Translations under genes and position numbers: made by a program
The notes under the pieces: generated by a model
Database searches by the model: none
Seen by the model: the letters and a program-made list of their open reading frames with translations, nothing else
What the model was told of the DNA's origin: nothing
NCBI RefSeq assembly: GCF_002072105.2
Contig: NZ_MTBC01000002.1
Location: 62,001-126,000 of the forward strand
Origin: Croceivirga radicis
Lineage (GTDB): Bacteria; Bacteroidota; Bacteroidia; Flavobacteriales; Flavobacteriaceae
Length of the DNA stretch: 64,000 nucleotides
Direction of reading: 5' to 3'
Shown here: positions 26,133 through 60,941 of the stretch, in pieces
Layout of the letters: each line of letters opens with the position of its first letter
Position numbering within the stretch: position 1 is the stretch's first letter

Positions 26133-26861
26133 ATGAAGTGTATTATTATAGACGATGAGCCTTTGGCGGCAGATTTGTTGGCAGATTATTGTCAGCATTT
26201 AGATTTCTTAGAAGTTGTAGGGGTTTTTACCAATCCATTAGAATCTATTCCTGTAATCAAAGCCAAAAATATAGATCTCATTTTTTTAGACATCGAAATG
26301 CCTCAACTATCTGGACTTGAGTTTATAGAGTTGTTAGATAATCCACCTTTATTTGTGTTTACCACAGCCTATTCACAATACGCCGTAGAGGGGTTTGATC
26401 TAAATGCGGTAGACTACCTCTTAAAACCTATTCGAAGAAGTAGATTTATCAAAGCGGTAACTAGGGTAAAAGAAGTTCATTCACAAAGAAATCCATTAAT
26501 AGCCAATAACATTTTTTCTTCTGTTGGAGGAGAAAACAAAAAGGAAGATTTTATTTTCATTAAATCAGAATATGAAAACATTAAGGTTAAGATAGAAGAC
26601 ATTACCTATGTACAGGGTTTAAAAGACTATTTAAAAGTACATCTGGTGCAGTGCAATAAACCCATACTTACCCTAATGAGCTTTAAACAATTGGCAGATC
26701 GCCTTAATAGCTCAAGTTTTGAAAGGGTGCACAAATCATTTCTTGTCAATATAAACCACATAGATGCTGTTCAAAGAAATAGAATAGTATTAAGCGATAT
26801 GCGCATACCTATTGGGGAGCGCTATAAGCCTAATGTGCTTTCTCGTTTGGGTATATCTTAA
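26133..26861 (+). CDS. LytTR-family response regulator
   Basis: 242 residues: receiver domain (residues 1-120, acidic D7/D8, phospho-acceptor D53 in LIFLDIEMP, later LLKP lysine) and a C-terminal LytTR DNA-binding domain (FIFIKSEYENIKVKIEDITYV through RVHKSFLVNI). Cognate partner of the LytS-like kinase directly upstream. It may control the Kelch/DUF4907 operon itself, but no LytTR direct repeat was identified. Confidence 0.94.
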   Translation: MKCIIIDDEPLAADLLADYCQHLDFLEVVGVFTNPLESIPVIKAKNIDLIFLDIEMPQLSGLEFIELLDNPPLFVFTTAYSQYAVEGFDLNAVDYLLKPIRRSRFIKAVTRVKEVHSQRNPLIANNIFSSVGGENKKEDFIFIKSEYENIKVKIEDITYVQGLKDYLKVHLVQCNKPILTLMSFKQLADRLNSSSFERVHKSFLVNINHIDAVQRNRIVLSDMRIPIGERYKPNVLSRLGIS

Positions 26862-26998
26862 AAATCCATTAATCTAAAGAACTGGGCAATTCGTCTATAC
26901 AAATAAGAGTACTACAGAAATGACCCTTTATTTCCCTTAGCTCGATGGTATTTTTGAATTATCAAATAAAGCAAAACACTATTTAACTATAAAAAAAA

Positions 26999-46914: not shown

Positions 46915-47064
46915 TTTAAACAGGTGTTAATCTGTAAGAATATTATTATTAACTTCATCGAAACTTTTAGGTTATTCGTCTATAGTAAATTACTATTGAT
47001 GCTTTAACGTTCTCCCCATTAATGTTTAAAAAGGCAAATTTGTAGTTATCCAAACAAGCAAGTA

Positions 47065-47463
47065 ATGAAAGTATTATTCATTGAAGATGATATGATAGAG
47101 TGCATGAAAATGCAACGTGCCGTATCCAAATTCACTACCAAACACCAAATAATAGAGGCAAAGAATGGCGAGGAGGCCTTGAATATTCTTAAGGGAGGTG
47201 ACTTACCAGATATAATATTTTTAGACTTGAACATGCCAAGGATGAATGGAATAGAATTCTTAGCTATTCTAAAAAATGACGAAAAACTTAGATACTTGCC
47301 TACTATAATTCTTACTACTTCTGAGAACCGTACAGATTTATTGGAATGTTTTAAGATTGGCATTGCAGGATACATTATTAAGCCCTTGAAATATGAAGAC
47401 TACGAAGACAAAATTAAAAGGGCTTTTCAGTACTGGGAAATTAACGAGCTAATCAAAGGTTAA
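47065..47463 (+). CDS. single-domain response regulator (CheY-like)
   Basis: 132 residues, receiver domain only. Acidic pocket E7-D8-D9, phospho-acceptor D54 (IIFLDLNMPRMNG), and K106 in IIKPLKY. Similar to Rcp1/CheY receivers that accept phosphate from PAS kinases. First gene of the signalling cluster. It probably receives phosphate from the kinases downstream or passes it via the Hpt proteins; its own output is unknown. Confidence 0.92.
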   Translation: MKVLFIEDDMIECMKMQRAVSKFTTKHQIIEAKNGEEALNILKGGDLPDIIFLDLNMPRMNGIEFLAILKNDEKLRYLPTIILTTSENRTDLLECFKIGIAGYIIKPLKYEDYEDKIKRAFQYWEINELIKG

Positions 47464-47542
47464 TACCCAAAATACTTCTTTGTTACCTGCATAATAAGTA
47501 GTCTATTTCTTACGTTTTACTACAAACTAACGCTGTCTTATT

Positions 47543-48085
47543 ATGAAAGGAATTGTATTTACCGAGTTTCTTGAAATGGTAGAAGAAACTTTTGGTCTAG
47601 AAACTGTGGATACTATTATAGAAAATTCAGAATTGCCCTCAGGAGCCGCTTATACCGCGGTGGGCACCTATGACTTTAATGAAATGGTGCAGTTGTTAAC
47701 AAACCTGAGTCAGGAAACGGAAATTCCCGCAAACGACTTACTGTATACCTTTGGCACCTATTTGTTCAATAGTTTGGCAGGGGTGCATCCAGAAGTAGTG
47801 GCAGGCTATAAGGCACCACTTAACCTACTATACTCTATAGAAGACCATATTCACGTTCACGTTAAAAAACTATATCCAGACGCAGAACTACCTACTTTCA
47901 AAATTTTAGAAAAGACAGACAATACCATGGTAATGATTTACAGCTCTACTAGAGGTTTGTATGCATTGGCACATGGATTAATGACCAAAACTTTTGAGCA
48001 TTTTAATAAAAGGGTAGATGTTGATATGGAGTTGCTTAACGAGCAGGGAACCGAAGTAAAGTTTTCTATAGTCCAACATGGATAG
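47543..48085 (+). CDS. H-NOX haem nitric-oxide/oxygen sensor
   Basis: 180 residues, HNOB domain. Axial haem ligand His104 (DHIHVHVKKLYP, in the HxxV context), P117 (AELPTF) and the haem-propionate motif Y133-S-S-T-R137 are all visible. Cytoplasmic. H-NOX proteins bind NO and control an adjacent kinase or diguanylate cyclase. Here the coding region overlaps the PAS kinase gene by 8 bases, so coupled translation with its likely partner. NO selectivity over oxygen cannot be read with confidence. Confidence 0.92.
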   Translation: MKGIVFTEFLEMVEETFGLETVDTIIENSELPSGAAYTAVGTYDFNEMVQLLTNLSQETEIPANDLLYTFGTYLFNSLAGVHPEVVAGYKAPLNLLYSIEDHIHVHVKKLYPDAELPTFKILEKTDNTMVMIYSSTRGLYALAHGLMTKTFEHFNKRVDVDMELLNEQGTEVKFSIVQHG

Positions 48086-50426
48086 CAACAAAGAAGTAGA
48101 ATTACTAAAACGTGCCTTAAAACGAGAGAAAACAGCGCGTAGGGCAGCAGAAAGTTTGCTTGAAGAAAAATCTAAGCAGCTTTATGATGCCTCTATGCAT
48201 TTACGAGAAGTTAACGGTAGGTTAAAAGGCATGTTATCTACCAAGGATTCTCTTTGGGAAGACGCATTTGTAAATATCATAGACCCTTATGTGGTCATGG
48301 ATATTGCAGGGAATGTTTTGAGTATGAACCAAAGTGCCAAGGAATTTTTTGGCTTTGATCATGAAAAACAAAACATTAACCTCACGTCCTTAGTTCACAA
48401 GGATTACGTAGAATACACCAAAAATGCATTTGCCTCCTTAATGCATACGGGTATTATTAAAAATTATAATGCCAAACTTAACACCTTATCCAATGGGGAA
48501 CGCTACGTTAACATGAACGCGAGTCTTATATACGATGATAAGGGCAATCCAATTGCTGCTCAAGGTGTAATTAGGGATACAACCAGGGAAGTAGAAATAA
48601 AAGAGTTGCTAGAAGATCAGAAAAAGCAACAAGATATTATTGTAGAAAATTCCTCATTAGGCATCTTGCTTACGGTAAAAGATGTAGTTGTAAAAGCAAA
48701 TAAAACGTTTGTAGAGCTACTAGGTTATTCGGCAACGGAACTGGCCAGTAAAACCTTGGATGATATATCTTCTGTAGAAGATTTAGATGCGTTAGAACAC
48801 ATTTTAAAGAGTGATGGTACCGCGGTAAGCGATAAATATTCTATAGTACGAAAATTTAGAAAGAAAACAGGTGAAACACTTTTCGGAAAAACATCGGTAA
48901 ATACCGTACGCAATAAAGAAGGAGAAATAGTCTATCAAGTGGTCATGATAGAAGATATTACTCAAGACCGTATTGCAGAAGAAAAAATACGGGCTTCTGA
49001 GCAACGTATGTCTACTTTAATTACCAACCTACAAACAGGAATTCTTCTAGAAGATGCCAATAGGAAAATGGTATTGACCAACAAGAAGTTTTGTGAGCTT
49101 TTTCATATACCCATTGCTCCAGAAAGTCTAGTTGGTGTAGATTGTAAAGCTTATCTAGAAAAAAGTAGAGCTGTTTTTAAAAATCCTGACGCGGTTATTG
49201 AAAGATTGAATCGTGTTTTAGAGGCACGTGAATTGGTTATGTCAGACGAGATAGAGCTAGCAGATGGGCGTACCTTAGAGCGAGATTATATTCCACTTTA
49301 CGTAGATAATGTTTATCAAGGGCATTTATGGTCTTATAGTGATGTTACTATTAAAAAGAATTACCGCAAAAACTTAGAGGCAGAGCGCAGAAAGTATGGC
49401 AGTATTGTAGATAACATGAATCTAGGTCTGGTAGAGATAGATGGCGATGGTAATATTCTAATGACCAATAGTCGTTTTTTAGAAATGATTGGGTATTCCA
49501 AAGAGGCTATTGTTGGCCAGAACGTGGTAAGTTTAATGCAATTAGATGATGTTAATAGGAAAAAAATACGGGAACAGATTAATAAGCGTAAGCAACATGT
49601 TTCTGATTCTTATGAAATAGAGATAACGGATTACAATGGAAATCTGCGACATTGGTTAATTAGTGCTGGTCCTAATTTTGATGAATCTGGAAAGGTTATA
49701 GGATCAATTGGTGTGCATTTAGATATTACCGAGCAAAAAGAGCTAGAAAAGCAATTGGCAGAAAGTAATAAAGGTTTGCAAGAATATGCACATATTGTTT
49801 CTCATGATTTAAAATCGCCCTTAAGAAGCGTTACGGCTTTAATAACTTGGCTGCAAGAAGATTATGCCGAGGTTTTAGATGAAAATGGTAAAAATACCCT
49901 AAGAATGATTACCGATAAGATTGAGGGTATGGACAGACTTATTGGGGGTATTCTCAAATATTCTACCGTAAATAATGATACGTTGGACAATACCGCGGTT
50001 AATTTGAACAATGTGGTAGAAGAGATTACGGACATCATCTACATACCAGATAACGTACAGGTAAAAATTAAGGGAGATTTACCAACCATACAGGCAGATA
50101 AAGTAAAAATGCACCAATTGTTTCAGAATATCATTGGTAATGCCGTGGTTAACATAGATAAGGAGGTTGGCCTTGTAGAGGTATCTGGTAAAGAAACAAC
50201 CTCACATTGGCAGTTTAGTGTTAAAGATAATGGTGTTGGTATCCCTAAGGAATACCATGAAAAAATCTTTAAAATATTTCAATCTATTGGCAATAATGAA
50301 AGAAGTACAGGTATAGGATTGTCCATTGTAAAAAAGATTATAGATAGGTATCACGGAAAAGTTTGGCTAGATAGTGAAATTGGAGTAGGTACCACCTTTC
50401 ATTTTACCCTTAAAAAGAATTTGTAA
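48078..50426 (+). CDS. PAS-domain hybridless histidine kinase, probable H-NOX partner
   Basis: 782 residues, soluble. N-terminal coiled coil (LLKRALKREKTARRAAESLL), then four PAS units (about residues 65-560, each ending in a PAC-like IRDTTREVEI, VVMIEDITQDR or IGVHLDITEQKELE). Kinase domain: phospho-acceptor H576 in AHIVSHDLKSPLRS, N box QNIIGNAVVN, DNGVGIP, and STGIGLSIVKKII. No receiver or Hpt is attached, so phosphate must pass to separate proteins. Position directly after H-NOX suggests NO/H-NOX control. The kinase core closely resembles the one at 51552. Confidence 0.93.
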   Translation: MDSNKEVELLKRALKREKTARRAAESLLEEKSKQLYDASMHLREVNGRLKGMLSTKDSLWEDAFVNIIDPYVVMDIAGNVLSMNQSAKEFFGFDHEKQNINLTSLVHKDYVEYTKNAFASLMHTGIIKNYNAKLNTLSNGERYVNMNASLIYDDKGNPIAAQGVIRDTTREVEIKELLEDQKKQQDIIVENSSLGILLTVKDVVVKANKTFVELLGYSATELASKTLDDISSVEDLDALEHILKSDGTAVSDKYSIVRKFRKKTGETLFGKTSVNTVRNKEGEIVYQVVMIEDITQDRIAEEKIRASEQRMSTLITNLQTGILLEDANRKMVLTNKKFCELFHIPIAPESLVGVDCKAYLEKSRAVFKNPDAVIERLNRVLEARELVMSDEIELADGRTLERDYIPLYVDNVYQGHLWSYSDVTIKKNYRKNLEAERRKYGSIVDNMNLGLVEIDGDGNILMTNSRFLEMIGYSKEAIVGQNVVSLMQLDDVNRKKIREQINKRKQHVSDSYEIEITDYNGNLRHWLISAGPNFDESGKVIGSIGVHLDITEQKELEKQLAESNKGLQEYAHIVSHDLKSPLRSVTALITWLQEDYAEVLDENGKNTLRMITDKIEGMDRLIGGILKYSTVNNDTLDNTAVNLNNVVEEITDIIYIPDNVQVKIKGDLPTIQADKVKMHQLFQNIIGNAVVNIDKEVGLVEVSGKETTSHWQFSVKDNGVGIPKEYHEKIFKIFQSIGNNERSTGIGLSIVKKIIDRYHGKVWLDSEIGVGTTFHFTLKKNL

Positions 50427-51550
50427 TGAAGTTCAATCAAGGCATAAAACAGAAAAATAAAGAGTGGGACTTTACACAACAAACACCCCTTGACAATCCT
50501 TTGGTTTTAGTATTTGGAGACCGTTATTTACTAGAGTCGGAAACGATTTTTGAAGAAGTACGTGAAATGTATCCAAATGGTGAAATTGTTTTTGGTTCAA
50601 CTTCAGGAGAAATTTACAATACCAATGTTTTTGAAGAGTCTGTAGTTATTACGGCAATAGAATTTGAAAAAACAACATATAAAATAGTAACTGATAATGT
50701 TAAAAATTACAGTTCTATAACAGAATTGGGTAGGTCTTTGGCCACTAAATTACCCAAAGAGAATTTGAATCACATTTTTGTTGTCTCAGATGGTAGTTTC
50801 GTAAATGGTAGCCAACTAATCAAAGGTATTGAAGAAATTAGTAAGGATACCGCCCCAATTACAGGTGGACTTTGTGGAGATGGCGCTCGTTTTGAAAAAA
50901 CATTGACCGCTTACAATAGCAATCCAAAAGAAGGAGAGGTTGTAGTAATTGGGTTTTATGGGAAAGAATTGGAAGTTAGTTATGCAAACTATGGTGGATG
51001 GTCCGTTTTTGGCCCAAACCGATTGGTAACCCGGTCTAAAGACAACGTGTTGTTTGAAATTGATGGCCAGCCGGCATTAGAGTTGTACAAAAAATATTTA
51101 GGAGAAAAATCTAAAGATCTGCCACAAGCGGCGCTGCTTTATCCGTTAGCTGTAAAAGTTGGTGATAAAAAACCTTTGGTACGTACCATTTTAAATATAG
51201 ATGAAAAGACAAATTCTATGATTTTGGCTGGTGACGTTCCAGAAGGTGCAACGGTGCAATTAATGATGTCTACTATGAACGATATTGCTGAGGCAGCTTC
51301 CAAAGCGGCTAATTTGGCGATGGAAAAACGGAGTAAAAAACCAGAATTGGCCCTATTAGTAAGCTGTGTAGGTAGAAAATTGGTTCTAGCGGGTAGAACA
51401 GAAGAGGAAATTGAGGAGGTAAGGGATGCTATTGGTGATACTGCCGTTATAACTGGTTTTTATTCTTATGGTGAAATGGCACCATTTTCAGGAAAAAAGA
51501 ACTGTCTTTTACACAACCAGACAATGACATTAACCTTAATGAGTGAATAA
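50426..51550 (+). CDS. FIST-domain sensor (NosP-like)
   Basis: 374 residues, soluble, FIST-N (roughly residues 28-220: LVLVFGDRYLLE, EIVFGSTSGEIYN, ITGGLCGDGARF) and FIST-C (about 230-360: ALELYKKYLGE, ALLVSCVGRKLVLAGRTEEE, GFYSYGEMAP). FIST proteins near histidine kinases and Hpt genes include NosP, a second type of haem NO sensor. Haem binding here is inference from that precedent. Start overlaps the preceding kinase stop by one base (TAATG). Confidence 0.9.
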   Translation: MKFNQGIKQKNKEWDFTQQTPLDNPLVLVFGDRYLLESETIFEEVREMYPNGEIVFGSTSGEIYNTNVFEESVVITAIEFEKTTYKIVTDNVKNYSSITELGRSLATKLPKENLNHIFVVSDGSFVNGSQLIKGIEEISKDTAPITGGLCGDGARFEKTLTAYNSNPKEGEVVVIGFYGKELEVSYANYGGWSVFGPNRLVTRSKDNVLFEIDGQPALELYKKYLGEKSKDLPQAALLYPLAVKVGDKKPLVRTILNIDEKTNSMILAGDVPEGATVQLMMSTMNDIAEAASKAANLAMEKRSKKPELALLVSCVGRKLVLAGRTEEEIEEVRDAIGDTAVITGFYSYGEMAPFSGKKNCLLHNQTMTLTLMSE

Positions 51551-51551
51551 T

Positions 51552-52604
51552 ATGCATTCGTTGCTTAAAAGACAAATACGAAAATTTTTACCAGATAGTT
51601 GCAAAGGCAATAAAGATTTAGAAGCGTTTCTAGAAGCCGTAAATAGGTCTTATGTAGATTATGATGATAAGTTAGATATGATACAACGTGCCACGGCATT
51701 AAGTTCAGAAGAATTGTATGAGGCAAACCAACGATTGAACAAAGAAACCGATAGCCAACAAAAAATTCTAGATGCCTTGAGTACGGCAATTGCAACTATG
51801 GAGAACAAAACCGTATCTGATAGCAATGAGATTAAAATAAAGACATCTGAGCTAGTAGAAAATATTGAAAAACAAACCAAACGCATAATTTCTATAAACC
51901 AAGAAAAAGACGAGTTGCTAACCAATTTAGAGCGAAAAAACGAAGCTTTGAACAATTATGCCCATATGGTTTCCCACGATTTAAAATCGCCCATTAGAAA
52001 TATACATTCGTTGGTTGATTGGACCTATGAAGATAGCTCAGAGGATTTTAAGGCTACCTACAAAGAAAATTTTGATTTAATCTTTCAAAATTTAACCAAA
52101 ATGGATAGCCTAATAAATGGAATACTAAAGCATGCTACCATAGATGCACTAGAAGAAGACACGGTGCCCGTAAACTTAAATACATTGGTTGGCGAAATAC
52201 AACGCACCATATTTGTGCCAGAACATGTAGCCATCACTATTAACGGTGAGCTTCCCGTATTAATGGCCGGTAAATATCGATTGGAACAACTGTTTAAAAA
52301 CTTATTGATCAATGCCGTAACCGCAGTCTCAGATAAACCAGAGGGCAAGATTGTTCTTTCTGCGGAAAAAGATGGCGATAACTGGTTTTTTACGGTAAAA
52401 GATAATGGTAAAGGTATACCAAAACATTTACAAGACGGTATTTTTGATATGTTTAAAAAGTTGGAAAACGATGCGTCCGCAACCGGTATTGGTTTGGCCT
52501 TGGTCAAAAAAATAATTAATTATTATAACGGTAAAATCTGGTTAGACTCACAAAAAGGTCTTGGAGCCATTTTTTACTTTACGTTGAATTTAAAGGAGGT
52601 GTAA
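51552..52604 (+). CDS. histidine kinase, probable FIST partner
   Basis: 350 residues from ATG 51552, which directly follows the FIST stop; a GTG at 51543 is also possible. A long coiled coil (about residues 40-130) lies before the kinase core: H142 in AHMVSHDLKSPIRN, N box KNLLINAVTAV, DNGKGIPKHLQDGIF and TGIGLALVKKII. No PAS, membrane helix or receiver, so signal must come through a protein partner, most simply the FIST protein. Start of the Hpt gene overlaps its stop by one base. Confidence 0.92.
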   Translation: MHSLLKRQIRKFLPDSCKGNKDLEAFLEAVNRSYVDYDDKLDMIQRATALSSEELYEANQRLNKETDSQQKILDALSTAIATMENKTVSDSNEIKIKTSELVENIEKQTKRIISINQEKDELLTNLERKNEALNNYAHMVSHDLKSPIRNIHSLVDWTYEDSSEDFKATYKENFDLIFQNLTKMDSLINGILKHATIDALEEDTVPVNLNTLVGEIQRTIFVPEHVAITINGELPVLMAGKYRLEQLFKNLLINAVTAVSDKPEGKIVLSAEKDGDNWFFTVKDNGKGIPKHLQDGIFDMFKKLENDASATGIGLALVKKIINYYNGKIWLDSQKGLGAIFYFTLNLKEV

Positions 52605-52924
52605 TGGAGCATGTAGTAGACCTAGCTTATCTAAACGATATTTCTGGCGGAAATGAATTGGTACGGAACAAATTTTTGCAAGTGGTAAAAGTAGAGTTTC
52701 CACAAGAAAAAGCGGCTTATTTTGATTTGATGAAATCTAAGAAAAACAAAGAAGCAGCAGAGTTAGTCCATAAAATAAAAAATAAATTTGGTATTTTAGG
52801 TTTAAATAATGGATACCAAATTGCGGTAGACTACGAAGAAGGGCTCAAAGTTGAAGATTATTCCCTCAAGACAAACTTTGAAACCGTTTTAACAGTTGTA
52901 AGTAATTATATTCAGAAAATTTAA
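52604..52924 (+). CDS. Hpt phosphotransfer protein (first)
   Basis: 106 residues, single Hpt domain. Phospho-site H56 in AAELVHKIKNKFGILGL, with flanking helices typical of Hpt. It presumably shuttles phosphate between the kinases and the receivers (CheY-like, LytTR, GT2 fusion). Coupled to the kinase by a one-base overlap. Confidence 0.87.
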   Translation: MEHVVDLAYLNDISGGNELVRNKFLQVVKVEFPQEKAAYFDLMKSKKNKEAAELVHKIKNKFGILGLNNGYQIAVDYEEGLKVEDYSLKTNFETVLTVVSNYIQKI

Positions 52925-52929
52925 AACAC

Positions 52930-53652
52930 GTGAACTGTATTGTCATAGATGATGAAATGTTATCCCAAGAAATAATGGGGCAGCTAATATCTACTCATTC
53001 CAAGTTAGAGATAGCAGAGAAATTTCCTAGTTGTATTGCGGCGTTAAAATATTTGGGGGATCATAAGGTAGATTTAATTTTTCTTGATCTGCATATGAAA
53101 GATTTTTCTGGAGTAGATTTTTTGAAAACCATTAGTAGTGATCAAAAAGTTGTTTTAACTACATCTGACCCATCATTTGCATCTGCTTCCTATGAATATG
53201 ACAACATAGTAGATTATTTGGTAAAACCAATAACTTCTGATCGTTTTGAAAAAACAGTTTCTAGAATAGAGGCTGCCTTTGCAGAGCAGAAAGCACCAAA
53301 AGCTGCTAGTGCAGATAAGGAAGAAAATGGTAGTGCAGGAGATGAGTTGTTCATCAATATAGATAGAAGACTAATTAAACTTAAATTTAAGGACATTCTA
53401 TTTATAGAGGCCAAAGGAGACTACATCCATGTAAAAACAATAAAAGAAGACTTTAGGGTACACAGCACCTTAAAAAAGATTAAGGACAAACTTCCAGAGT
53501 CCTTGTTTATGCAAATTCATAGGTCCTATGTTATCAATTTCACTAAAATTATTGATATACAGGATAATAGTGTGCTCATAGAAAAAAGTGTAATTCCAAT
53601 AAGCAGGTCTCAAAGACCAAACCTAATGCAGCGGCTAAATTTGCTACAATAA
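52930..53652 (+). CDS. LytTR-family response regulator
   Basis: 240 residues, GTG start 5 bases after the Hpt stop. Receiver with D6-D7-equivalent acidic pocket, D53 (LIFLDLHMKDFSG) and LVKP lysine; linker of low complexity (KAPKAASADKEENGSAGDE); LytTR DNA-binding domain (LKFKDILFIEAKGDYIHVK to MQIHRSYVINFTKI). It is the only DNA-binding output of the cluster, so it probably sets transcription of the cluster or of the polysaccharide genes. Confidence 0.93.
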   Translation: MNCIVIDDEMLSQEIMGQLISTHSKLEIAEKFPSCIAALKYLGDHKVDLIFLDLHMKDFSGVDFLKTISSDQKVVLTTSDPSFASASYEYDNIVDYLVKPITSDRFEKTVSRIEAAFAEQKAPKAASADKEENGSAGDELFINIDRRLIKLKFKDILFIEAKGDYIHVKTIKEDFRVHSTLKKIKDKLPESLFMQIHRSYVINFTKIIDIQDNSVLIEKSVIPISRSQRPNLMQRLNLLQ

Positions 53653-53725
53653 AGCTCGTTTTGATGCAATAAAAGTAGGAAAATACGTTATATATAAACA
53701 ACTTTTAGCGTGTTAGTGTAACGTT

Positions 53726-54028
53726 ATGGCTTTAGAAATTGCAGAGAAAGATGGTGTTGTAGAATTAAAGGGCAAGGTTAATGCCCATAACATTGGTGCC
53801 ATCTTAATATTTCTACAAGAAAAGTTATTAGTGGAACAAAACTTAAAAGTAGACCTAAGTAAGGTGCAGCAGTTGGATATAAAAGCTGCCTTGTTGTTAG
53901 AAGAATTATATAGAGCTTCTAATCTTACAATAAAAAGAACTCAATTTTATGGAAAGGATAATGCATGTGTTATGGAAACCTTGAGGTTTACCAAAACCGC
54001 TTATATCCTATCAGAATCTAAATCTTGA
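53726..54028 (+). CDS. STAS-domain protein
   Basis: 100 residues, STAS fold (MALEIAEKDGVVELKGKVNAHNIGAI, VDLSKVQQLDIKAALLLEEL). The phospho-serine place in the usual DSSG motif reads LDIKAA, so it is probably not phosphorylated by an RsbW-type kinase. No anti-sigma factor is nearby. It lies 73 bases after the LytTR regulator and 4 bases before the second Hpt gene. A similar STAS-like gene opens the polysaccharide set at 56917. Confidence 0.78.
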   Translation: MALEIAEKDGVVELKGKVNAHNIGAILIFLQEKLLVEQNLKVDLSKVQQLDIKAALLLEELYRASNLTIKRTQFYGKDNACVMETLRFTKTAYILSESKS

Positions 54029-54032
54029 TTTT

Positions 54033-54359
54033 ATGGTTACCGAACAACCTAGTACAACCTACATAGATGATGTAGCCGGCTCTGATGCAGACTTTAGAGC
54101 AAGTTTTATCAACATAGTAAAAATGGAATTTCCAGAAGAGTACCAATACTATCTAAAAATGTATGAAGAGGGCAACTTAACGGAAACCGCAAGCATTGTT
54201 CATAAATTAAAGCATAAGCTTAATATTGTTGGCCTACAAGAAGGGTACAAATTAGCCGTTACCTATGAAGAAGAATTAAAGGCAGGTTCCGCAGCATTAC
54301 ATACCACGTTTTTACCGGTTTTAGATAAAGCAAAAGAATTTATAACCACACTAGAATAA
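54033..54359 (+). CDS. Hpt phosphotransfer protein (second)
   Basis: 108 residues, Hpt domain with H57 in TASIVHKLKHKLNIVGLQEGY, clearly paralogous to the Hpt at 52604 (shared HKxKxKxxIxGLxxGYxxAVxYEE pattern). Two distinct Hpt proteins in one cluster suggest two branches of phosphotransfer. Confidence 0.87.
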   Translation: MVTEQPSTTYIDDVAGSDADFRASFINIVKMEFPEEYQYYLKMYEEGNLTETASIVHKLKHKLNIVGLQEGYKLAVTYEEELKAGSAALHTTFLPVLDKAKEFITTLE

Positions 54360-54382: not shown

Positions 54383-54411
54383 AAAAAAGGGTGCCATTGG
54401 CACCCTTTTTT
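54383..54411. terminator. bidirectional terminator between convergent genes
   Basis: GGGTGCC (54389-54395) pairs with GGCACCC (54399-54405) around ATT; an A run on the left and a T run on the right make a terminator in both directions. Confidence 0.92.
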
Positions 54412-54429
54412 ATATTCGATTAGTTCTTA

Positions 54430-56514
54430 TTAGTTTTCTAGTAATGCCATATCCTTACCAAACAGTTGATTAAAGAATAAGGGTTTCTCCGTTATATTCC
54501 ATTTAAGTCTCAGCCCCATTTCTGTAAACTGAAAACCGGCACCAATGGCAGATGCAATATTACTATACTTTCCATAAGCGGTAAGGCTCAACCGTTTGGT
54601 AAATGCATGTGTAAGCCCGCCTTCTGCACGGTAGATCACCGTCATGTCATCTTGTTCTACTTGCTGTAAACCGCCAGCGGCGCTAACATATCCTTTTGTT
54701 TTCTTGGATAAATCACCTCTTAAATCAAAAAACAATTCCATGTTTTTGTAAATAGAGGGGCTAAAATATATTGTAGGTACTTGGTTTTTAAAGGATAAAT
54801 ATTGAAAGTTTACCCCAAATTTAAATGCAGGTTTCTTAAATAGGTTATAATACAAAGATGTAAATAGCAATTGCCTAACATTCTCATCAGTCTGGGTGGT
54901 ATACATTGCTTGGGTATACCAACCTAGATTAAAATTTGTGCCTAGGTTATAGGTAAGCCCGTAATGGTTCATGATAATTTCTCTTTTTATCAATTCTGCG
55001 TTAAAGGCTTGTACTTCTCTTTTATAATTAAGCTCTAGACTATTTAATTTTAACGGTTTGGTTTGTAGTTTAACATCTAATAATGGGGTTATGTAGGTAG
55101 TGTCCAAAAAACGAGCAGCGTATACACCACCGCTAGCAATTAAATTAACCCTAGGCACCAATTTGTAGCTTGCCGTTCCTGTAAATGTATGTGAGCTAGC
55201 CTTATTTACGGTAATCTCATTTTCACTATTTCTATATTGGTACAAAAATCCGGTTTTAAACTTAGGGCTTATGGGTATATCTACTGTAGTGGTAGCCGCG
55301 TAGGCTATATTGTTTCCATTATCAAAAGTATATTGAAGCCATTCTTCTGCTGTTGGCGTATTTTGCAGATTAAGTTTTTCTATAAATCCAACTGCATCTT
55401 TTTGGTTCTCATAGATTTTAAGAGTGTTAAATGCGTTTTCATAGGCCGGCACTAAATTGTCATTGGCAAACATAGCATTGGCTTTTCCCATATTACCATC
55501 AAAAGAGGTGCTGTCTCGCTCCAAAATAACATCATAATTGGTAATACTGGTTTTAAAGTCACCGGTATACATGCCTAGTGTTGAGCGGAGCAAGGTGAGC
55601 CAATTGCTGTTAGGATAATGTTTTTCTAAACTATCTATTTTTTTTCTGGCCACCACATATTTTTGATTCCAAATAAGGGCTTGAATGTATCTATTATAGG
55701 TATCTTCTATCTGCGGATGGTTTGCCACCATATCTACCTTTTTTTTCGCCTTTAAAACGGAATTTAAAGCGCTTTTATCATCTTCTTTTAAATGATAAGC
55801 AAGAGAAATACCATTTAAAGCGGTAATACTGTCTGCATGCGTAGTTGCCAATCTTTTATAAGTTGCAATTTGTTTATCATACTCTTTTGACATTAAAAAT
55901 AGGTTGGCTAAATTTTGGAGTCCTTGCTTATCTTCAGGAAAATCTACAAAAACCTTGTTCAATAAGTTTTCTGCAGGTTTAAATTGATCTATTTTAGATA
56001 ACTTATAGGCATATCCCAAATAAATATATTTTCTAGAAACTTTTGCTCCTTCATTTTCGGGTTCCATGGCAATAGCTTTATTTACCCATTCCAGGGCCGC
56101 ATTATATTCTTGTAGATTAGAAAGGGTATTGGCCAAGCCTAGAACGGCTCCAAACTTATCTGGATTGTTTTTTACAAGTTGCTGATAATGTGGTTTTGCT
56201 TCTTTGAACTTTCTGGCCCATAAAAATGCTTCGCACCAGTTAGATTCTATCTCATAGTCATTAGGATAATCTGCTTTCATAGCCTCAAAATAGGTTATGG
56301 CTTCTTCTGGTTTACCACTTAAACCAAATGCTCTACCGTAACAAATTCTAGCAGATTTATTCAAGGGGTCCTCTTTTAAATAGGCTTCAAAAAAAATTGA
56401 AGCTTCTTTAAATTGTCCAGAATCCAATAGACTAAACCCTTTGGTAATGTCCATTTGCGCATTGGCCATCCAACAACAACAAAAAGCTAAAATAGCTATA
56501 CTATTTAATTTCAT
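54430..56514 (-). CDS. TPR protein with C-terminal outer-membrane beta-barrel (YaiO-type)
   Basis: 694 residues from ATG 56514 (MKLNSIAILAFCCCWMANAQ, a Sec signal); an upstream non-ATG extension is rejected. Residues about 25-400 are TPR units (SARICYGRAFGLSGKPEEA, KFGAVLGLANTLSNLQEYNAA and others). The last ~270 residues form beta strands with aromatic ends as in YaiO barrels, ending in LRLKWNI. Periplasmic TPR plus barrel is the plan of PgaA and BcsC, which export polysaccharide. The gene lies between the signalling and the polysaccharide genes, on the opposite strand, so an export role is plausible but not shown. Confidence 0.85.
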   Translation of the reverse strand: MKLNSIAILAFCCCWMANAQMDITKGFSLLDSGQFKEASIFFEAYLKEDPLNKSARICYGRAFGLSGKPEEAITYFEAMKADYPNDYEIESNWCEAFLWARKFKEAKPHYQQLVKNNPDKFGAVLGLANTLSNLQEYNAALEWVNKAIAMEPENEGAKVSRKYIYLGYAYKLSKIDQFKPAENLLNKVFVDFPEDKQGLQNLANLFLMSKEYDKQIATYKRLATTHADSITALNGISLAYHLKEDDKSALNSVLKAKKKVDMVANHPQIEDTYNRYIQALIWNQKYVVARKKIDSLEKHYPNSNWLTLLRSTLGMYTGDFKTSITNYDVILERDSTSFDGNMGKANAMFANDNLVPAYENAFNTLKIYENQKDAVGFIEKLNLQNTPTAEEWLQYTFDNGNNIAYAATTTVDIPISPKFKTGFLYQYRNSENEITVNKASSHTFTGTASYKLVPRVNLIASGGVYAARFLDTTYITPLLDVKLQTKPLKLNSLELNYKREVQAFNAELIKREIIMNHYGLTYNLGTNFNLGWYTQAMYTTQTDENVRQLLFTSLYYNLFKKPAFKFGVNFQYLSFKNQVPTIYFSPSIYKNMELFFDLRGDLSKKTKGYVSAAGGLQQVEQDDMTVIYRAEGGLTHAFTKRLSLTAYGKYSNIASAIGAGFQFTEMGLRLKWNITEKPLFFNQLFGKDMALLEN

Positions 56515-56916
56515 AAAAAGTAAGTTAAATACTACAAATATGTAACGTCGTAATTTGGATTTTATTAGTGAAAAGGGAGTATGTAAAGTTAAATTATCTA
56601 CATACACATTCAATAGTAAGCTTTTTAACGTTGGTCTATACTAGTTGGTAATTGGTCTAATGCACTTTAATACAACTGGTTAAAAGTTAAGATTTTAGTT
56701 AAAGCAAGGGTGCGGAGAATTAATATGCCAGAGAATTTATGTTAAATAAAACTTAAAAATATTTGAATAATCAATTGAATAATATGGTTTCTGGGCGATG
56801 AAATTAACATAAATTAAAGAAAAGTACGTAAAAACCTACAATAAATATAGGAATTAGCGTTATAGGTAATATGAGGCATTTGCTCTCCCAAATTAATTAA
56901 CCTACAAACTCGCCTT
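56515..56916. other. divergent intergenic region
   Basis: About 400 bases between divergent genes, AT-rich. Near-consensus elements such as AATATTTG (plus strand, around 56757-56764) are present, but no exact promoter, terminator or small gene could be supported. It probably holds the promoters of the TPR-barrel gene and of the STAS/polysaccharide operon, with long leaders. Confidence 0.4.
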
Positions 56917-57180
56917 ATGGCTTTACATATTAAAGAGTACAATAACGTAATTTACATCCAGGGATGTTTAGATACCACTAATCTCACCTGTTTAAGGAGT
57001 TACTTAATACCGCAACTAGAAGCCGGTAAACAGTTAATGGTCAATGTAGATGGTGTGTCCACTATTACCAATGAAATGGTTAAAGAGATGCATGCGCTAA
57101 AAAAAATTGCGCAAGAGGTTAACGGAAGTATTTCTTATTACTCCAACAATCATAAAGACATTTACAAATATCAGACTTAA
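56917..57180 (+). CDS. small STAS-like protein
   Basis: 87 residues with STAS-like pattern (MALHIKEYNNVIYIQGCLDT, then MVNVDGVSTITNEMVKEM). Similar in outline to the STAS protein at 53726 (both begin MAL-I-E--). First gene of the polysaccharide run, 10 bases before the flippase gene. Role unknown; it may bind a protein of the signalling group. Confidence 0.65.
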   Translation: MALHIKEYNNVIYIQGCLDTTNLTCLRSYLIPQLEAGKQLMVNVDGVSTITNEMVKEMHALKKIAQEVNGSISYYSNNHKDIYKYQT

Positions 57181-57190
57181 AATTAACTGA

Positions 57191-58453
57191 ATGGAAGCTT
57201 TAAAAACGTTACATAAACGGTTATCACCAGAGCAATTGTTCATGGTAAGCGTTATTGTAGTTAACGGTGGTAACTATTTATATAATTTATTACTTGGTAG
57301 AATATTGGGGCCAGAAGCTTTTGCAGAGGCCGCTTTATTAATTACCCTATTATTGGTTTTATCTTTTATTGGAATGACTTTTCAGTTGACTGCAGCAAAA
57401 TTTGCGGTAGAATTTACTGGAGAAAAATGGCATGCATTTAAAAATAGAACCTTGTTTTTGACTTTGGTTTTCGGGGCTGTGGTTGGGTTGTTGCTAATCT
57501 TGTTTTCAGCAAGTCTAAAAAGCCTATTTCATACAGAGAGCGCATGGATGTTCATCATTTTTGCCATTGGTATACCCGTTTACTTTTTTATGAGTTTAAA
57601 CAGGGGTATTTATCAAGGCAAACAAGAATATGCCAGCTTATCTACAACTTACCAAACAGAAATGTGGAGTAGGTTACTTTTGACCATAGCACTATTATTC
57701 ATTTTGCCCTTGCCAACGGGAATAGTAGTTGCCATTGGTATTCTAATATCTTTCTTCTTTGGTTTGTTCCCATCTAAAATTAAAAGTCTAAGGATTAACA
57801 AGTCCTTGGTTTTGGAACCAGTGGCCCGTAAGCATGTTATACGGTTTATGTGGTTAACCGCTGGTTATGAATTAACGCAAATTATTATAAACAATAGTGA
57901 TATTCTTTTGGTAAAACATTTTTTTGAAGCCAAACCTGCAGGTTTATATGCGTCTTTGGCCCTAATTGGAAGGGTGGTTTATTTTGCAGCATGGATGTTT
58001 GTTATGCTTTTGTTGCCAACTGTGGTAAAAAACCGTAAAGAGGGCAAACCAACAGCTCCGGTTTTAATAAAATATGTAACCTACATTGGTGGTTTGGCCA
58101 TATTAATTGTAGGGGTATGTTTTTTAATTCCAGAAACCGTAGTAAATCTAATGTTTGGTAAAGCCTATATAGAAGTTGCCCACATGTTGTGGAAATACGC
58201 GCTAGCTACCTCATTATTTGCCCTAAGTAACATATTTGCGTATTACTTTTTATCCTTGGATCATTACGTTCCAGTTATTCTTTCAGGAATCCTTGGCATG
58301 TCCCAAATCATATTGATTTTATTTTTTCATGATAGCCTTAATACGGTAATTCTTATGCAGATTATTGCCATGGCTATTTTACTGGTGGTACAACTAATGT
58401 ACTTTTTGAACAAAGAAATATTTAATTCCCAAATTAACATAGATAATCCTTAA
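57191..58453 (+). CDS. polysaccharide flippase (Wzx-like, MATE/MOP superfamily)
   Basis: 420 residues, about 12 membrane helices over the full length. N-terminal NYLYNLLLGRILGPEAFAEA matches the polysaccharide-export (Wzx/RfbX) family signature; SLNRGIYQGKQEY and AYYFLSLDHY fit MOP flippases. It would move lipid-linked sugar units across the inner membrane. Followed after 3 bases by the GT4 gene. Confidence 0.88.
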   Translation: MEALKTLHKRLSPEQLFMVSVIVVNGGNYLYNLLLGRILGPEAFAEAALLITLLLVLSFIGMTFQLTAAKFAVEFTGEKWHAFKNRTLFLTLVFGAVVGLLLILFSASLKSLFHTESAWMFIIFAIGIPVYFFMSLNRGIYQGKQEYASLSTTYQTEMWSRLLLTIALLFILPLPTGIVVAIGILISFFFGLFPSKIKSLRINKSLVLEPVARKHVIRFMWLTAGYELTQIIINNSDILLVKHFFEAKPAGLYASLALIGRVVYFAAWMFVMLLLPTVVKNRKEGKPTAPVLIKYVTYIGGLAILIVGVCFLIPETVVNLMFGKAYIEVAHMLWKYALATSLFALSNIFAYYFLSLDHYVPVILSGILGMSQIILILFFHDSLNTVILMQIIAMAILLVVQLMYFLNKEIFNSQINIDNP

Positions 58454-58456
58454 CCT

Positions 58457-59686
58457 ATGAGATTAGCAATAGTAACGGCCTACCCTCCCAGTAAGGTTAC
58501 CCTTACGGAGTACGCATACTACTTGGTAAAGCATTTTAGAATGCAGCATCGTGTAGAAGAATTGATTTTATTATGCGATAAAACAGCAGGTGAAAAAGAC
58601 TTGGATTTTACGGAAGATGGTTGCAAAATTACCGTAAAAGAATGTTGGCGATTTAATGATTATGGCAACTTGTTTAGCATAACCAATGCTATAAGAAGCA
58701 CCAAGCCAGATGCGGTATTGTACAATCTGCAGTTTATGAAGTTTGGAGACAAAAAGGTGCCAGCTGCCCTAGGGTTGTTATTACCTTTTATTACAAAGGT
58801 TAGTGGTGTGCCCACGGTATCTCTTTTGCACAACATAATGGAGACCGTGGATTTAAAGGATGCTGGTTTTACCAATAACAGGCTTTTGGCAGCTATCTAC
58901 AATTTTATTGGTTCTACATTAACCCGTTTTGTTTTAGCGTCAGATGAGGTAGCGGTAACCATTAGTATGTACGTAAAAACACTTAAGGCGAAGTACAAAA
59001 AGGACAACATAAAGTTAATACCACACGGCACCTTTGAACTACCGCCACAACCGGATTATACATTACCAAAGGGGCCAAAGCAAGTTATGGCGTTTGGAAA
59101 ATTTGGTACCTATAAAAAGGTAGAGGTAATGATTGAAGCCGTAGAACAAATTAGAAAAAGAACCCAAGAAGATATTGAAATTGTTATTGCGGGTACAGAT
59201 AGCCCTAATACACCTGGATATTTGGCAGCTGTTGCAAAAAAATATGAACACGTACCACAACTACGATTTACGGGGTATGTTCCAGAAGAAGACGTGCAAC
59301 GTATTTTCCAAGAAAGTGCGGTTGCTGTATTCCCCTATACCTCTACCACGGGTAGCTCCGGGGTACTGCACCAAGCAGGTAGCTATGGTAAAGCAGTTGT
59401 ACTTCCAGATTTAGGTGATTTAGGAATATTGGTTAGAGAAGAAGGTTATACGGGTGAATTTTTTGAAGCGGATAATTCAGATTCACTGGCCAATGCCATA
59501 GAAAAAATATTGGTTAATGATGCCTACAGGGTAGAATTGGGACAAACCAATTACCAGGCAGCTACCTCGTTGCCAATGTCTAAAATTACATCTATGTATT
59601 TAGATCTTTTTGAAGCGATTGCCAAAAGAAGGGGAAAAGTATGTAAAGAAAAAATAGAAGAAAAAACAGAAAAGATACTGGCGTAG
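58457..59686 (+). CDS. GT4-family glycosyltransferase
   Basis: 409 residues. Two Rossmann-type halves: N-terminal acceptor part (MRLAIVTAYPPSKVTLTEYA) and C-terminal nucleotide-sugar part (VMAFGKFGTYKKVEVMIEAV, QLRFTGYVPEEDVQRIFQESAVAVFPY, GVLHQAGSYGKAVVLPD). The E-x7-E motif is partly altered (SSGVLHQAGSYGKAVV). Cytoplasmic or membrane-peripheral. Sugar unknown. Confidence 0.9.
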   Translation: MRLAIVTAYPPSKVTLTEYAYYLVKHFRMQHRVEELILLCDKTAGEKDLDFTEDGCKITVKECWRFNDYGNLFSITNAIRSTKPDAVLYNLQFMKFGDKKVPAALGLLLPFITKVSGVPTVSLLHNIMETVDLKDAGFTNNRLLAAIYNFIGSTLTRFVLASDEVAVTISMYVKTLKAKYKKDNIKLIPHGTFELPPQPDYTLPKGPKQVMAFGKFGTYKKVEVMIEAVEQIRKRTQEDIEIVIAGTDSPNTPGYLAAVAKKYEHVPQLRFTGYVPEEDVQRIFQESAVAVFPYTSTTGSSGVLHQAGSYGKAVVLPDLGDLGILVREEGYTGEFFEADNSDSLANAIEKILVNDAYRVELGQTNYQAATSLPMSKITSMYLDLFEAIAKRRGKVCKEKIEEKTEKILA

Positions 59687-59717
59687 CCTAGGTATTTCCA
59701 TATAAAAACTTACAACA

Positions 59718-60941
59718 ATGAAAATTTTAGCAATAGATGATCAGCAGTTAATCTTGATGTCTTTACAAAAAAGACTTCAAGAATTGGGGTATCAGGTGCA
59801 AATTGCCAGTAACGGTGTTAGTGCCAAAGCGGTATTTGATGAGTTTGAGCCAGACTTGGTTCTAGTAGATATTAATATGCCACAAATTAGTGGTTTAGAA
59901 TTGGTCCAATACTTTAGAAACACCAAGAATTCAGAGGTGCCAATTATGGTATTGTCTGGAAATACAGATGAAGAAACTATTCTCAAAGGCTATGATTTGG
60001 GAATTAGCGATTACATGAAAAAGCCGGTTAGTCTCAATGAGGTAGCAGCTCGAGTTAAAAATTTAATAGGCGTGCCAGAACAATCTGGTGTTTCACATAA
60101 AAACGATACAAACCAGATGTTACAAGAATATGTGGTTGGTGTGGTAATACCTTGTTACAACGAGGAGGAGCGTTTGTTGAGTGATGAATTCCAGTCTTTT
60201 GTAAAGCAAAACTTAGGATATCACCTCTGTTTTGTAAATGATGGTAGCACAGACAACACCCTGGCTGTTTTAAACAAACTGAAAGAAGGCCATGAAGACC
60301 ACATTAGTGTTTATGATTGCCCGCAAAATGGAGGTAAAGCAGAAGCAGTGCGTTTGGGTACGCTGCACTTGGCCCAAGATCCACAGTTAGATTATATCGG
60401 GTACCTTGACGCGGATTTATCCACGGATTTTAAAGATTTTGACGATTTAGTGCAGACCATCAGAAAGTCAGATTATAAGATAGTCAGTGGTTCTAGAATG
60501 GCTAGAATGGGGGCGGATATAAACAAAGAATCTGCTAGGGCAATAATTAGCAAGACTATTAATTTTTTAATACGCTCTATCTTAAGAATGCCGTTTAATG
60601 ATACGCAATGCGGAGCAAAAATCATGGATAAGGAAATTGCTACCTTGGTATTTGGCAAACCTTTTTTGACCAGATGGTTGTTCGATGTTGAAATTTTTAA
60701 ACGAATTAGCAATGCCTATGGAAGACAGCAAGCAATAGCAATAATTTGTGAGCAACCATTAAAACGTTGGATTCATGCAGACGGGTCTAAACTATCTTTT
60801 AAAGATTCTGCCAAGATTATATTTCAACTGGCGCAAATAGCTTTTCATTACAGGTTAAAAAAGAATAAAGATCGTAAGACCAAGCTTGTAAAGACCCCAA
60901 AAAACGTAATCAACAATACATCGGTTTCTCCTACATCTTAA
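59718..60941 (+). CDS. response-regulator receiver fused to GT2 glycosyltransferase
   Basis: 407 residues. Residues 1-120: complete receiver, with D7-D8, phospho-acceptor D51 (LVLVDINMPQISG), S80 and K102 (MKKPVSL). Residues ~138-380: GT2 of the dolichyl-phosphate-glucose/mannose-synthase type, with VVIPCYNEEERL, NDGSTDNT, metal-binding DAD at 231-233 (YLDADLSTD), MPFNDTQCGAKIMDKE and TRWLFDVEIF. No membrane helix, so a soluble or peripheral enzyme. It probably transfers sugar to polyprenyl phosphate, with activity gated by phosphorylation. The fusion lies in one reading frame without a break. Unusual architecture; the phosphate donor is likely a kinase or Hpt from 48-54 kb. Confidence 0.92.
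   Translation: MKILAIDDQQLILMSLQKRLQELGYQVQIASNGVSAKAVFDEFEPDLVLVDINMPQISGLELVQYFRNTKNSEVPIMVLSGNTDEETILKGYDLGISDYMKKPVSLNEVAARVKNLIGVPEQSGVSHKNDTNQMLQEYVVGVVIPCYNEEERLLSDEFQSFVKQNLGYHLCFVNDGSTDNTLAVLNKLKEGHEDHISVYDCPQNGGKAEAVRLGTLHLAQDPQLDYIGYLDADLSTDFKDFDDLVQTIRKSDYKIVSGSRMARMGADINKESARAIISKTINFLIRSILRMPFNDTQCGAKIMDKEIATLVFGKPFLTRWLFDVEIFKRISNAYGRQQAIAIICEQPLKRWIHADGSKLSFKDSAKIIFQLAQIAFHYRLKKNKDRKTKLVKTPKNVINNTSVSPTS

Follow-up and report, generated by a model that had tools for sequence, protein, structure and literature searches.

The subject of this report is an operon at positions 47,065 to 54,359 of a 64,000-nucleotide stretch of Croceivirga radicis DNA (assembly GCF_002072105.2, contig NZ_MTBC01000002.1, positions 62,001 to 126,000), hereafter called the window. 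The window lies in contig C12 of a 3.6-Mb genome whose relatives are Flavobacteriaceae. On the plus strand, with almost no gaps, the listed open reading frames (ORFs) encode a stand-alone receiver, an H-NOX sensor, a histidine kinase (HK1), a FIST sensor, a second histidine kinase (HK2), an Hpt-like protein and a LytTR regulator. We lean, if only slightly, towards the view that H-NOX and FIST sensors find their partners through short, dedicated N-terminal heads, across phyla and on proteins other than kinases, and that flavobacteria exchange sensor and head as a single cassette, whose junction lies upstream of the phospho-histidine, on a fixed kinase core and relay that would serve a local matrix-polysaccharide regulon. 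As a whole, the operon is probably a modular sensory phosphorelay with H-NOX and FIST inputs, a shared relay and a matrix output. New here are the findings that each sensor class goes with its own kinase head, that sensor and head have been swapped together, and that predicted LytTR sites point to polysaccharide genes.

In the mechanism and direction of control that we infer, the H-NOX protein, responding to nitric oxide (NO) through haem, would dock on a helix at the start of HK1, and the FIST protein, probably with an NO/haem- or redox-related input, on an LLKRQ-type head of HK2, so that each sensor would switch its own member of a pair of related cytoplasmic kinases. Both kinases would pass phosphate to the stand-alone receiver, then to the Hpt-like protein and the LytTR regulator, which would bind 21-bp direct repeats both in the promoter of its own operon, giving feedback, and ahead of the polysaccharide genes nearby. 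The features of the operon are as follows.

47065 to 47463, plus strand: stand-alone receiver, operon gene 1 (PF00072, 1e-20)
47543 to 48085, plus strand: H-NOX, type A (PF07700, 1.5e-38; PDB 6bde, 6.9e-60)
48078 to 50426, plus strand: HK1, with KREK head, PAS stretches, HisKA and HATPase, without receiver (Pfam, N-terminus reading, core tree)
48078 to 48251, plus strand: KREK head of HK1, proposed H-NOX docking helix (alignment A3; head survey)
50426 to 51550, plus strand: FIST sensor, FIST_N and FIST_C (PF08495, 1.6e-43; PF10442, 3e-38)
51552 to 52604 (alternative GTG start 51543), plus strand: HK2, with FIST-kinase head, DHp and HATPase, without PAS or receiver
51552 to 51773, plus strand: FIST-kinase head of HK2, proposed FIST docking domain (alignment A4; head survey)
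52604 to 52924, plus strand: Hpt-like phosphotransfer protein, conserved in the operon (His56 in 99% of 108 homologues)
52930 to 53652, plus strand: receiver-LytTR DNA-binding regulator (PF04397, 1.7e-19; PF00072, 1.9e-14)
53726 to 54028, plus strand: STAS-domain protein, accessory (PF01740, 4.3e-5)
54033 to 54359, plus strand: second Hpt-like protein, a rare addition

All nine ORFs that the initial annotation had placed here on one strand are present, and the tight packing it described holds, with overlaps of 8 bases between H-NOX and HK1, 1 base between HK1 and FIST and 1 base between HK2 and the Hpt-like gene. The FIST/HK2 junction is an 8-base overlap if HK2 starts at the possible GTG, and the genes lie 1 base apart with the likelier ATG at 51552. 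In the Pfam search, both kinases carry a HATPase domain and HK1 carries PAS stretches; HisKA is marginal, at 27.0 bits in HK1 (just above the cut-off of 26.9) and 23.8 bits in HK2 (below it). The genome yields a single H-NOX match and a single FIST match. A promoter consensus scan of the window returned 40 promoter-like sites against 40.7 in shuffles, and thus no excess.

The N-termini of the kinases fall into three kinds, one for each sensor class. Kinases that follow a type A H-NOX begin with the helix LKRAL.REK.AR..AE..LE.KS.ELY, named the KREK head here, and those that follow a distant type B H-NOX begin with HNOBA (PF07701; 65.5 bits in locus L226 and 60.9 bits in L230), known as the H-NOX-associated domain of guanylate cyclase. 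Those that follow FIST begin with an LLKRQI.K....FL.AV..SY head, predicted to be helical in a whole-kinase model with a mean predicted local distance difference test score (pLDDT) of 75.7. Among deduplicated loci with a recognised kinase within 600 bp of the sensor, sensor and head match in 110 of 110 cases for type A and KREK, 10 of 10 for type B and HNOBA, and 77 of 78 for FIST and the FIST head (188, 10 and 126 of 127 before deduplication, the two locus sets overlapping). Omitted, with no recognised kinase in that range, are three type A, five type B, seven FIST and three divergent FIST loci; one kinase-less locus of type B, L109, holds only a truncated H-NOX where its contig ends. In L110, the sole FIST-head exception, a type B H-NOX separates FIST from an HNOBA kinase, and the operon is of a different, FIST-hybrid-kinase type. 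Other heads follow the one intermediate H-NOX (L240) and two divergent FISTs, and one KREK match is weak (L121, E 4.6e-5). The sensor classes were cut by profile score after the scores had been inspected, and the head profiles derive from the very kinases examined (40 KREK, 40 FIST-head and 8 HNOBA), so these ratios test adjacency, whereas detection is partly circular.

Searches extending beyond these neighbouring pairs give the same association. When every ORF of the retrieved loci was scanned, 189 of 192 KREK matches, 127 of 132 FIST-head matches and 11 of 13 HNOBA matches lay directly after their own sensor. Across 60 whole genomes, the KREK head occurs in all 30 that have H-NOX and in 1 of the 30 that lack it, and a comparison of positions places 30 of the 34 KREK matches directly after H-NOX; the FIST head occurs in 23 of 33 genomes with FIST and in none of 27 without. 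The ten FIST-bearing genomes without the head comprise nine with lower-scoring FISTs only and one with a partial FIST. On plasmids, 18 records have an H-NOX match (seven of them Vibrio), and in the six regions examined the protein right after H-NOX starts with the KREK head (E 5e-21 to 8e-10) and has no match to either other head at 0.001. Five of these proteins are kinases, from Persicobacter (two), Vibrio, Pseudooceanicola and Pseudoalteromonas. On a comamonad plasmid (L266:4001-6419), H-NOX is followed not by a kinase but by an EAL-domain protein, which is nevertheless KREK-headed. For two Azospirillum plasmid FISTs, the next gene is a PAS kinase with a FIST head (E 3e-10 and 7e-11). Single-sequence searches of the plasmids with the HK2 and KREK heads gave no match at 0.05, the 58-74 residue queries being too short. 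The initial annotation was right that each of two receiver-less kinases follows its own sensor; neither the sensor-specific heads and their co-swapping nor the LytTR sites predicted below formed part of it.

In at least two lineages, sensor and head have, as read from alignments and trees, changed together on a resident kinase core. The backbone and kinase-core trees used here are quick searches, with support from the Shimodaira-Hasegawa-like approximate likelihood ratio test (SH-aLRT) only. The first case is that of the genus g128 operons (L226-L230), whose H-NOX is of type B, scoring 39-61 bits on the type A profile, and whose receiver, FIST, HK2, Hpt-like and LytTR proteins are clear orthologues. 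The cores of g128-type HK1 proteins (together with L231, L249 and L251) form an 8-row clade (support 99) within the 40-row HK1 clade (97), far from other HNOBA kinases. Their H-NOX proteins group with those of other HNOBA kinases (100/99, in a tree that carries a long-branch warning). A window-wise comparison of HK1 likewise finds residues 1 to about 400 similar to external HNOBA kinases and the remainder similar to resident HK1. The switch point lies within about 50 residues before the phospho-histidine box in L230 and L231, and earlier in L226 and L227, with resident-like segments between.

The second case is a same-genus pair, L044 and L103, in which the receiver, H-NOX and LytTR proteins are 85-91% identical and HK1 77%, but FIST just 26%. 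The N-termini of their HK2 proteins are unrelated, and continuous identity begins 12-15 residues before the phospho-histidine; the L103 core falls inside the HK2 clade (99). A divergent FIST and a head of the L103 kind also occur in L116. Input modules are already known to be exchanged around the signalling helix (PMC1592074); the new point, as far as the open-licence literature shows, is an exchange paired with a separate sensor gene. If this is true, one operon takes interchangeable sensors. Such a natural domain swap, with the same kinase core under another sensor and head, bears on how stand-alone H-NOX and FIST/NosP proteins find and switch kinases, and it defines the exact segments to delete or exchange, making the question tractable with small purified proteins.

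The H-NOX protein of the window belongs to the HNOB family (132.7 bits against the PF07700 curated cut-off of 25.5), and its closest solved structures are 6bde and 6bdd (E 6.9e-60), of which 6BDD is used as Kordia algicida H-NOX in a section of PMC7356049. His104, named in the initial annotation as the haem ligand, is indeed present, aligns with 6bde and 6bdd, and is shared by 99% of 107 H-NOX proteins of type A. The YxSxR motif is, like the proximal haem histidine, characteristic of H-NOX haem sensors; Tyr133 and Ser135 are present in 100% of the 107 proteins, and Arg137 is present in the window protein. By these residues, the protein is predicted to be a standard haem sensor. Among named organisms, the nearest H-NOX, from Flavobacterium sp. 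ASW18X, is 86% identical.

The second sensor is a clear FIST-family member (FIST_N 149.2 bits, FIST_C 131.4 bits), as had been proposed. The further label of NosP-like survives only as this kinship, because a NosP equivalog is ruled out by a score of 64.9 bits on the NCBIfam model, whose cut-off is 450. The FIST signal is nonetheless likely to be related to NO or haem, since FIST proteins with partner kinases in Burkholderia, Legionella and Vibrio respond to NO in the portions of PMC12570481, PMC6769237 and PMC11237717 that concern them, although one review, in part, puts the FIST role in cautious terms. In addition, the joint presence of FIST and H-NOX in a second operon type (L110) suggests related signals. 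It is possible, if rather less probable, that the relay is as proposed but that FIST reads another signal, be it a small metabolite, haem in free form or the oxidation of conserved cysteine thiols, such that the operon joins NO with an unrelated cue. The low NosP score weighs against an NO input and for this alternative, as does the fold. In an AlphaFold2 model (pLDDT 88.9), the best match is human FBXO22 (Z 23.6), followed by chorismatase and cyanuric-acid hydrolase-type enzymes (Z 10.9-14.5), which suggests a fold common to FIST sensors and small-molecule enzymes and would make a small-molecule ligand as natural as haem. Haem proteins are not prominent among the fold matches listed, which rules nothing out, and a search of solved structures with the FIST sequence gave none that was credible. 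Cysteines C314 and C360 are invariant in 63 cassette FISTs, where H363 is the only invariant histidine; H116 is additionally invariant in a narrower set of 31.

FIST genes also occur in other settings. A Legionella anisa plasmid (L220:4476-5642) carries a FIST gene 41% identical to that of the window, with no adjacent kinase annotated. The five plasmid regions examined, of 92 records with a FIST match, comprise this lone Legionella gene, the two Azospirillum loci and two others, and no H-NOX is annotated beside FIST in any of the five. In several Flavobacteriaceae that lack H-NOX (G225:C68:172600-176945, G101, G069, G261 and G078), lower-scoring FIST genes stand in tandem, three to four to an array, and the FIST head was not found in the three array genomes searched (G069, G078 and G101). 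Low-scoring FISTs (about 90-120 bits) are deemed to be of another kind from their scores rather than from a tree.

Phospho-acceptor residues are found in all four relay parts (kinase, receiver, Hpt-like protein and regulator), with 99-100% conservation in the last three. In the stand-alone receiver, Asp8, Asp54, Thr85 and Lys106 are present in 100% of 109 homologues, and phospho-Asp53 of the LytTR protein's receiver in 100% of 101. Both kinases have the SHDLKSP core noted at the outset. Neither Hpt-like protein matches Pfam (including PF01627) at 0.001, and the label is given because of size, position and the conserved histidine. The parts of a split phosphorelay, as proposed in the initial annotation, are in place: two receiver-less kinases share a stand-alone receiver, a single conserved Hpt-like protein and a LytTR regulator as output. 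The two Hpt branches proposed there are no general feature, as a second Hpt-like gene accompanies just 2 of 98 tree-set operons (those of the window and L069), plus that of L140, the nearest named relative.

The cores of HK1 and HK2 form one clade (100, 80 rows) apart from 13 other H-NOX or FIST kinases, and in the window genome the HK1 core is among the two closest matches of the HK2 core (44% identity). Because the two kinases have the same kind of DHp/ATPase core, they may feed the same chain, with phosphate probably passing from kinase to receiver, Hpt-like protein and LytTR regulator. It seems unlikely that the transcript instead carries two parallel two-component systems, in which HK1 and HK2 would serve different receivers (the CheY-like protein and the LytTR regulator) without convergence. 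Both receivers are indeed present, and lone FIST-HK2 pairs elsewhere in two genomes (L258 and L265, in G383 and G002) have no recognised Hpt or LytTR gene within the 14 kb examined. Against this stand the common clade of the two cores and the lack of a private partner for HK2 in the operon, since operons without FIST retain the receiver, Hpt-like and LytTR genes.

The 80-row clade is not confined to HK1 and HK2 cores: it also includes a third kinase from each of L227, L228 and L251, and the kinase of L240 on a long branch. The third kinases of L227 (3715-5100, minus strand) and L228 (7917-9209, plus strand) lie between HK2 and Hpt, with an N-terminus that is GAF-like or membrane-bound as read by eye, and the core of the L228 protein is sister to its own HK2 core (97), as if by gene conversion. 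In the window genome (G000), a 441-residue kinase outside the operon (contig C14:14471-15187) is the best match of the HK2 core (42%), slightly ahead of HK1, and may feed the same relay.

The regulator at the end of the chain is a LytTR protein (70.3 bits against the PF04397 cut-off of 22.6), and such regulators bind two direct repeats about two helical turns apart. The motif CCATTCGTC[TG]ACACTT occurs before the operon with at most 5 mismatches in 71 of 93 upstream regions, against 0-2 in shuffles. Across the 107 loci, 125 exact half-sites are on the strand of the operon and 12 on the other. Second copies of the half-site peak at 21 bp (43 downstream and 24 upstream, against a mean of 1.4 at other spacings), as LytTR direct repeats would be expected to give. 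Degenerate half-site pairs at spacings of 15-30 on both strands of the window number exactly two, both at 21 bp, with none in 50 shuffles at that spacing. These sites and their neighbours are listed below.

46953 to 46982, plus strand: predicted LytTR site of the operon promoter, a direct repeat of two 9-bp half-sites whose starts are 21 bp apart, degenerate in this lineage
54430 to 56613, minus strand: TPR protein with a probable C-terminal outer-membrane barrel (by reading), convergent neighbour (TPR families)
56630 to 56659, plus strand: predicted LytTR site, a 21-bp repeat pair between the TPR gene (minus) and polysaccharide genes (plus), which could serve either
56917 to 60941, plus strand: likely polysaccharide genes, comprising a small STAS-like protein, a flippase-like protein, a group 1-type glycosyltransferase and a fusion of receiver and glycosyltransferase 2 (GT2)

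Exact sites are present in 13 of 25 whole genomes with H-NOX and 0 of 25 without (Fisher 2.9e-5), with none in a reversed control. Apart from operon promoters, 13 exact sites remain; of these, 12 share the contig and strand of H-NOX at a distance of 5.5-28 kb, and the remaining one is on a different contig. With a minimum profile score of 16 (11 for the window), the operon's strand carries 207 sites and the opposite strand 11. For 195 of these sites a following gene was found, taken as the longest ORF of at least 70 residues. The operon receiver and the receiver-GT2 fusion account for 98 (one joined cluster), followed by a secreted DUF4114 protein (33), flippase-like proteins (12), STAS proteins (10), glycosyltransferases (9) and UDP-sugar dehydrogenases (4). 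A 790-residue protein after four sites is read as a chain-length regulator or kinase (Pfam AAA_31). Among 86 operons, the TPR protein has a homologue at the same place and orientation in 42, and its match to the PgaA model is weak (36 bits against a cut-off of 367); flippase-like, GT4 and receiver-GT2 homologues lie downstream in 22, 15 and 10, respectively. Glycosyltransferase families are matched in homologues in L047 and L088, and the flippase-like membrane protein was named by eye, with no model match. From the content of the genes that follow these sites, the relay probably controls neighbouring slime (biofilm) genes. With the regulator on repeats before polysaccharide genes, the signal would set matrix production, suggesting an NO-to-matrix circuit in marine flavobacteria for which candidate regulator sites are in hand.

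Several points weigh against this output. The promoters of the window, L033 and L230 stand at 7 mismatches, and the window therefore fails the 5-mismatch test; its two sites are degenerate, with profile scores of 13.2 and 11.8 bits (shuffled maximum 8.0), and its genome has 6 exact half-sites against 4 in the reversed control. Exact sites are absent from 12 of 25 genomes with H-NOX, and 11 of the 24 found are circular because the motif was learned from those operon promoters. Other LytTR proteins could also read 21-bp sites. Elsewhere in the window, positions 25092-26900 carry a sensor-kinase-like gene and another LytTR regulator gene (26133-26861), just past which, at 26863, lies a 21-bp spaced site (13.8 bits). 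This arrangement would fit an alternative, which we consider doubtful, in which the repeats belong to another regulator of polysaccharide genes and the output of the relay lies elsewhere; it is countered by the sites before the operon itself, the absence of exact sites from all 25 genomes without H-NOX and the clustering of sites around H-NOX on its strand. The receiver-GT2 fusion (59718-60941, assigned by homology to L088, where the homologue follows a predicted site) raises the possibility of direct phospho-control of polysaccharide synthesis.

The gene order, whose absence from every relative would have refuted the initial annotation, is kept in relatives, with two dominant forms in Flavobacteriaceae: receiver, H-NOX, HK1, Hpt and LytTR, and the same with FIST and HK2 between HK1 and Hpt. 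Among 299 genomes of this family, H-NOX is found in 105 and FIST in 87; 68 have both, 37 H-NOX only, 19 FIST only and 175 neither (odds ratio 16.9, a figure that ignores kinship). A co-occurrence survey, as the initial annotation had proposed, shows the FIST and H-NOX genes at most 5 kb apart in 58 of the 105, against a random expectation of about 0.3%, and unlinked in 10. Co-location by chance or an oddity of one genome is thus ruled out by this linkage and the recurring order. Gene chains around the 107 H-NOX loci include FIST in 57 and lack it in 50, and a second, overlapping locus set includes it in 52 of 80, some chains stopping at contig ends. The full order also occurs in a genome from another family of the same class (L233). 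In a phylum sample of 345 genomes, H-NOX is found in 26 and FIST in 82.

On a receiver, Hpt and LytTR backbone tree of 98 operons, FIST presence changes at least 21 times. Distances track the backbone in 51 type A operons (Spearman 0.73 for FIST and 0.81 for H-NOX), as do HK2 core distances in all 56 operons (0.86). Since FIST has diverged in step with the backbone, repeated arrival fits less well than an ancient insert with many losses; there may also have been local transfers. The insert is nearly seamless, with a median gap of 1 bp both between HK1 and Hpt without it (40 operons) and between HK2 and Hpt with it (55), although a few outliers at the junction reach about 300 bp. Some operons show decay, as in L249 (LytTR on the other strand), L251 (no LytTR seen in the stretch) and L048 (FIST lost). 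In L249:3541-6510 and L251:7375-10317, H-NOX is gone while the HNOBA kinase and FIST-HK2 are kept; HNOBA scores 45 and 36 bits there, against 61-76 in four kinases with H-NOX.

These histories count in part against the modular, head-based reading. The frequent absence of the insert makes the second input dispensable, and most head counts are non-independent because heads and sensors are mostly inherited together. There are also orphans, namely HK2 with its head but without FIST in the operon of L048, and HNOBA-headed HK1 without H-NOX in L249 and L251. In G050 (C1:94725-97674), a KREK kinase, FIST and an HK2 head stand in a row without a nearby H-NOX, on a contig other than that of the H-NOX operon (judged from positions only). 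Nevertheless, it is improbable that head-sensor concordance reflects only the shared ancestry of linked genes and has no bearing on docking, for while most loci come from one family, whose KREK and FIST heads have been handed down together with their sensors, sensor and head changed twice, separately, on a constant core (type B H-NOX with HNOBA, and the divergent FIST of L103 with another head), and KREK also heads the comamonad EAL protein.

Searches among open-licence papers turned up no account of the operon, its kinase heads or their swapping, in keeping to that extent with the earlier statement that no described system has both sensors in one operon. The adjacency of H-NOX and FIST itself is not new, because FIST genes are reported in the genome neighbourhood network of one H-NOX cluster, in a section of PMC8738867 that contains no operon analysis. 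H-NOX/HnoK pairs in Shewanella, Vibrio and Caulobacter (PMC8846402, PMC8738867, PMC12329717) similarly place a stand-alone H-NOX beside a cytoplasmic kinase, and the KREK head is shared with H-NOX-linked kinases on Vibrio and Pseudoalteromonas plasmids. Unlike those pairs, the output here is a LytTR regulator, apparently reached through a separate receiver and Hpt-like protein, rather than a cyclic di-GMP enzyme, and the operon holds a second sensor-kinase pair. NosP-NosK/NahK systems of Burkholderia, Legionella, Vibrio and Pseudomonas (PMC12570481, PMC11237717, PMC6769237) also have a stand-alone FIST protein by a kinase without a recognised sensory domain, whereas the FIST protein here is far under the NosP cut-off, HK2 has no receiver and the operon has no cyclic di-GMP enzyme. 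Two gas-sensor families likewise feed one network in Legionella and Vibrio, where H-NOX and NosP act on cyclic di-GMP or quorum sensing, but the three receptor genes of Legionella are in three separate operons (PMC11237717) and both sensors are in one operon here. Saccharophagus degradans similarly has two sensors in one network, although both of them are H-NOX proteins, and PMC8738867 lists a single kinase for the two.

Several kinases, a stand-alone receiver, a phosphotransferase and a DNA-binding regulator also make up the Bacillus Spo0 phosphorelay. The present system differs in that its cytoplasmic sensors are separate proteins, its output is of the LytTR type and its genes are in one operon.

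At the 3′ end of the operon, the pair of STAS and second Hpt-like genes is a local feature of the window. It is followed by one further element, spotted by eye and not listed by the scan that gave the promoter-like sites.

54389 to 54412: hairpin and T run between convergent genes, a likely terminator (GGGTGCC-ATT-GGCACCC-TTTTTT)

In L069 (12250-14950), a second Hpt-like gene and a second LytTR gene follow the operon, an arrangement that resembles a duplicated output end.

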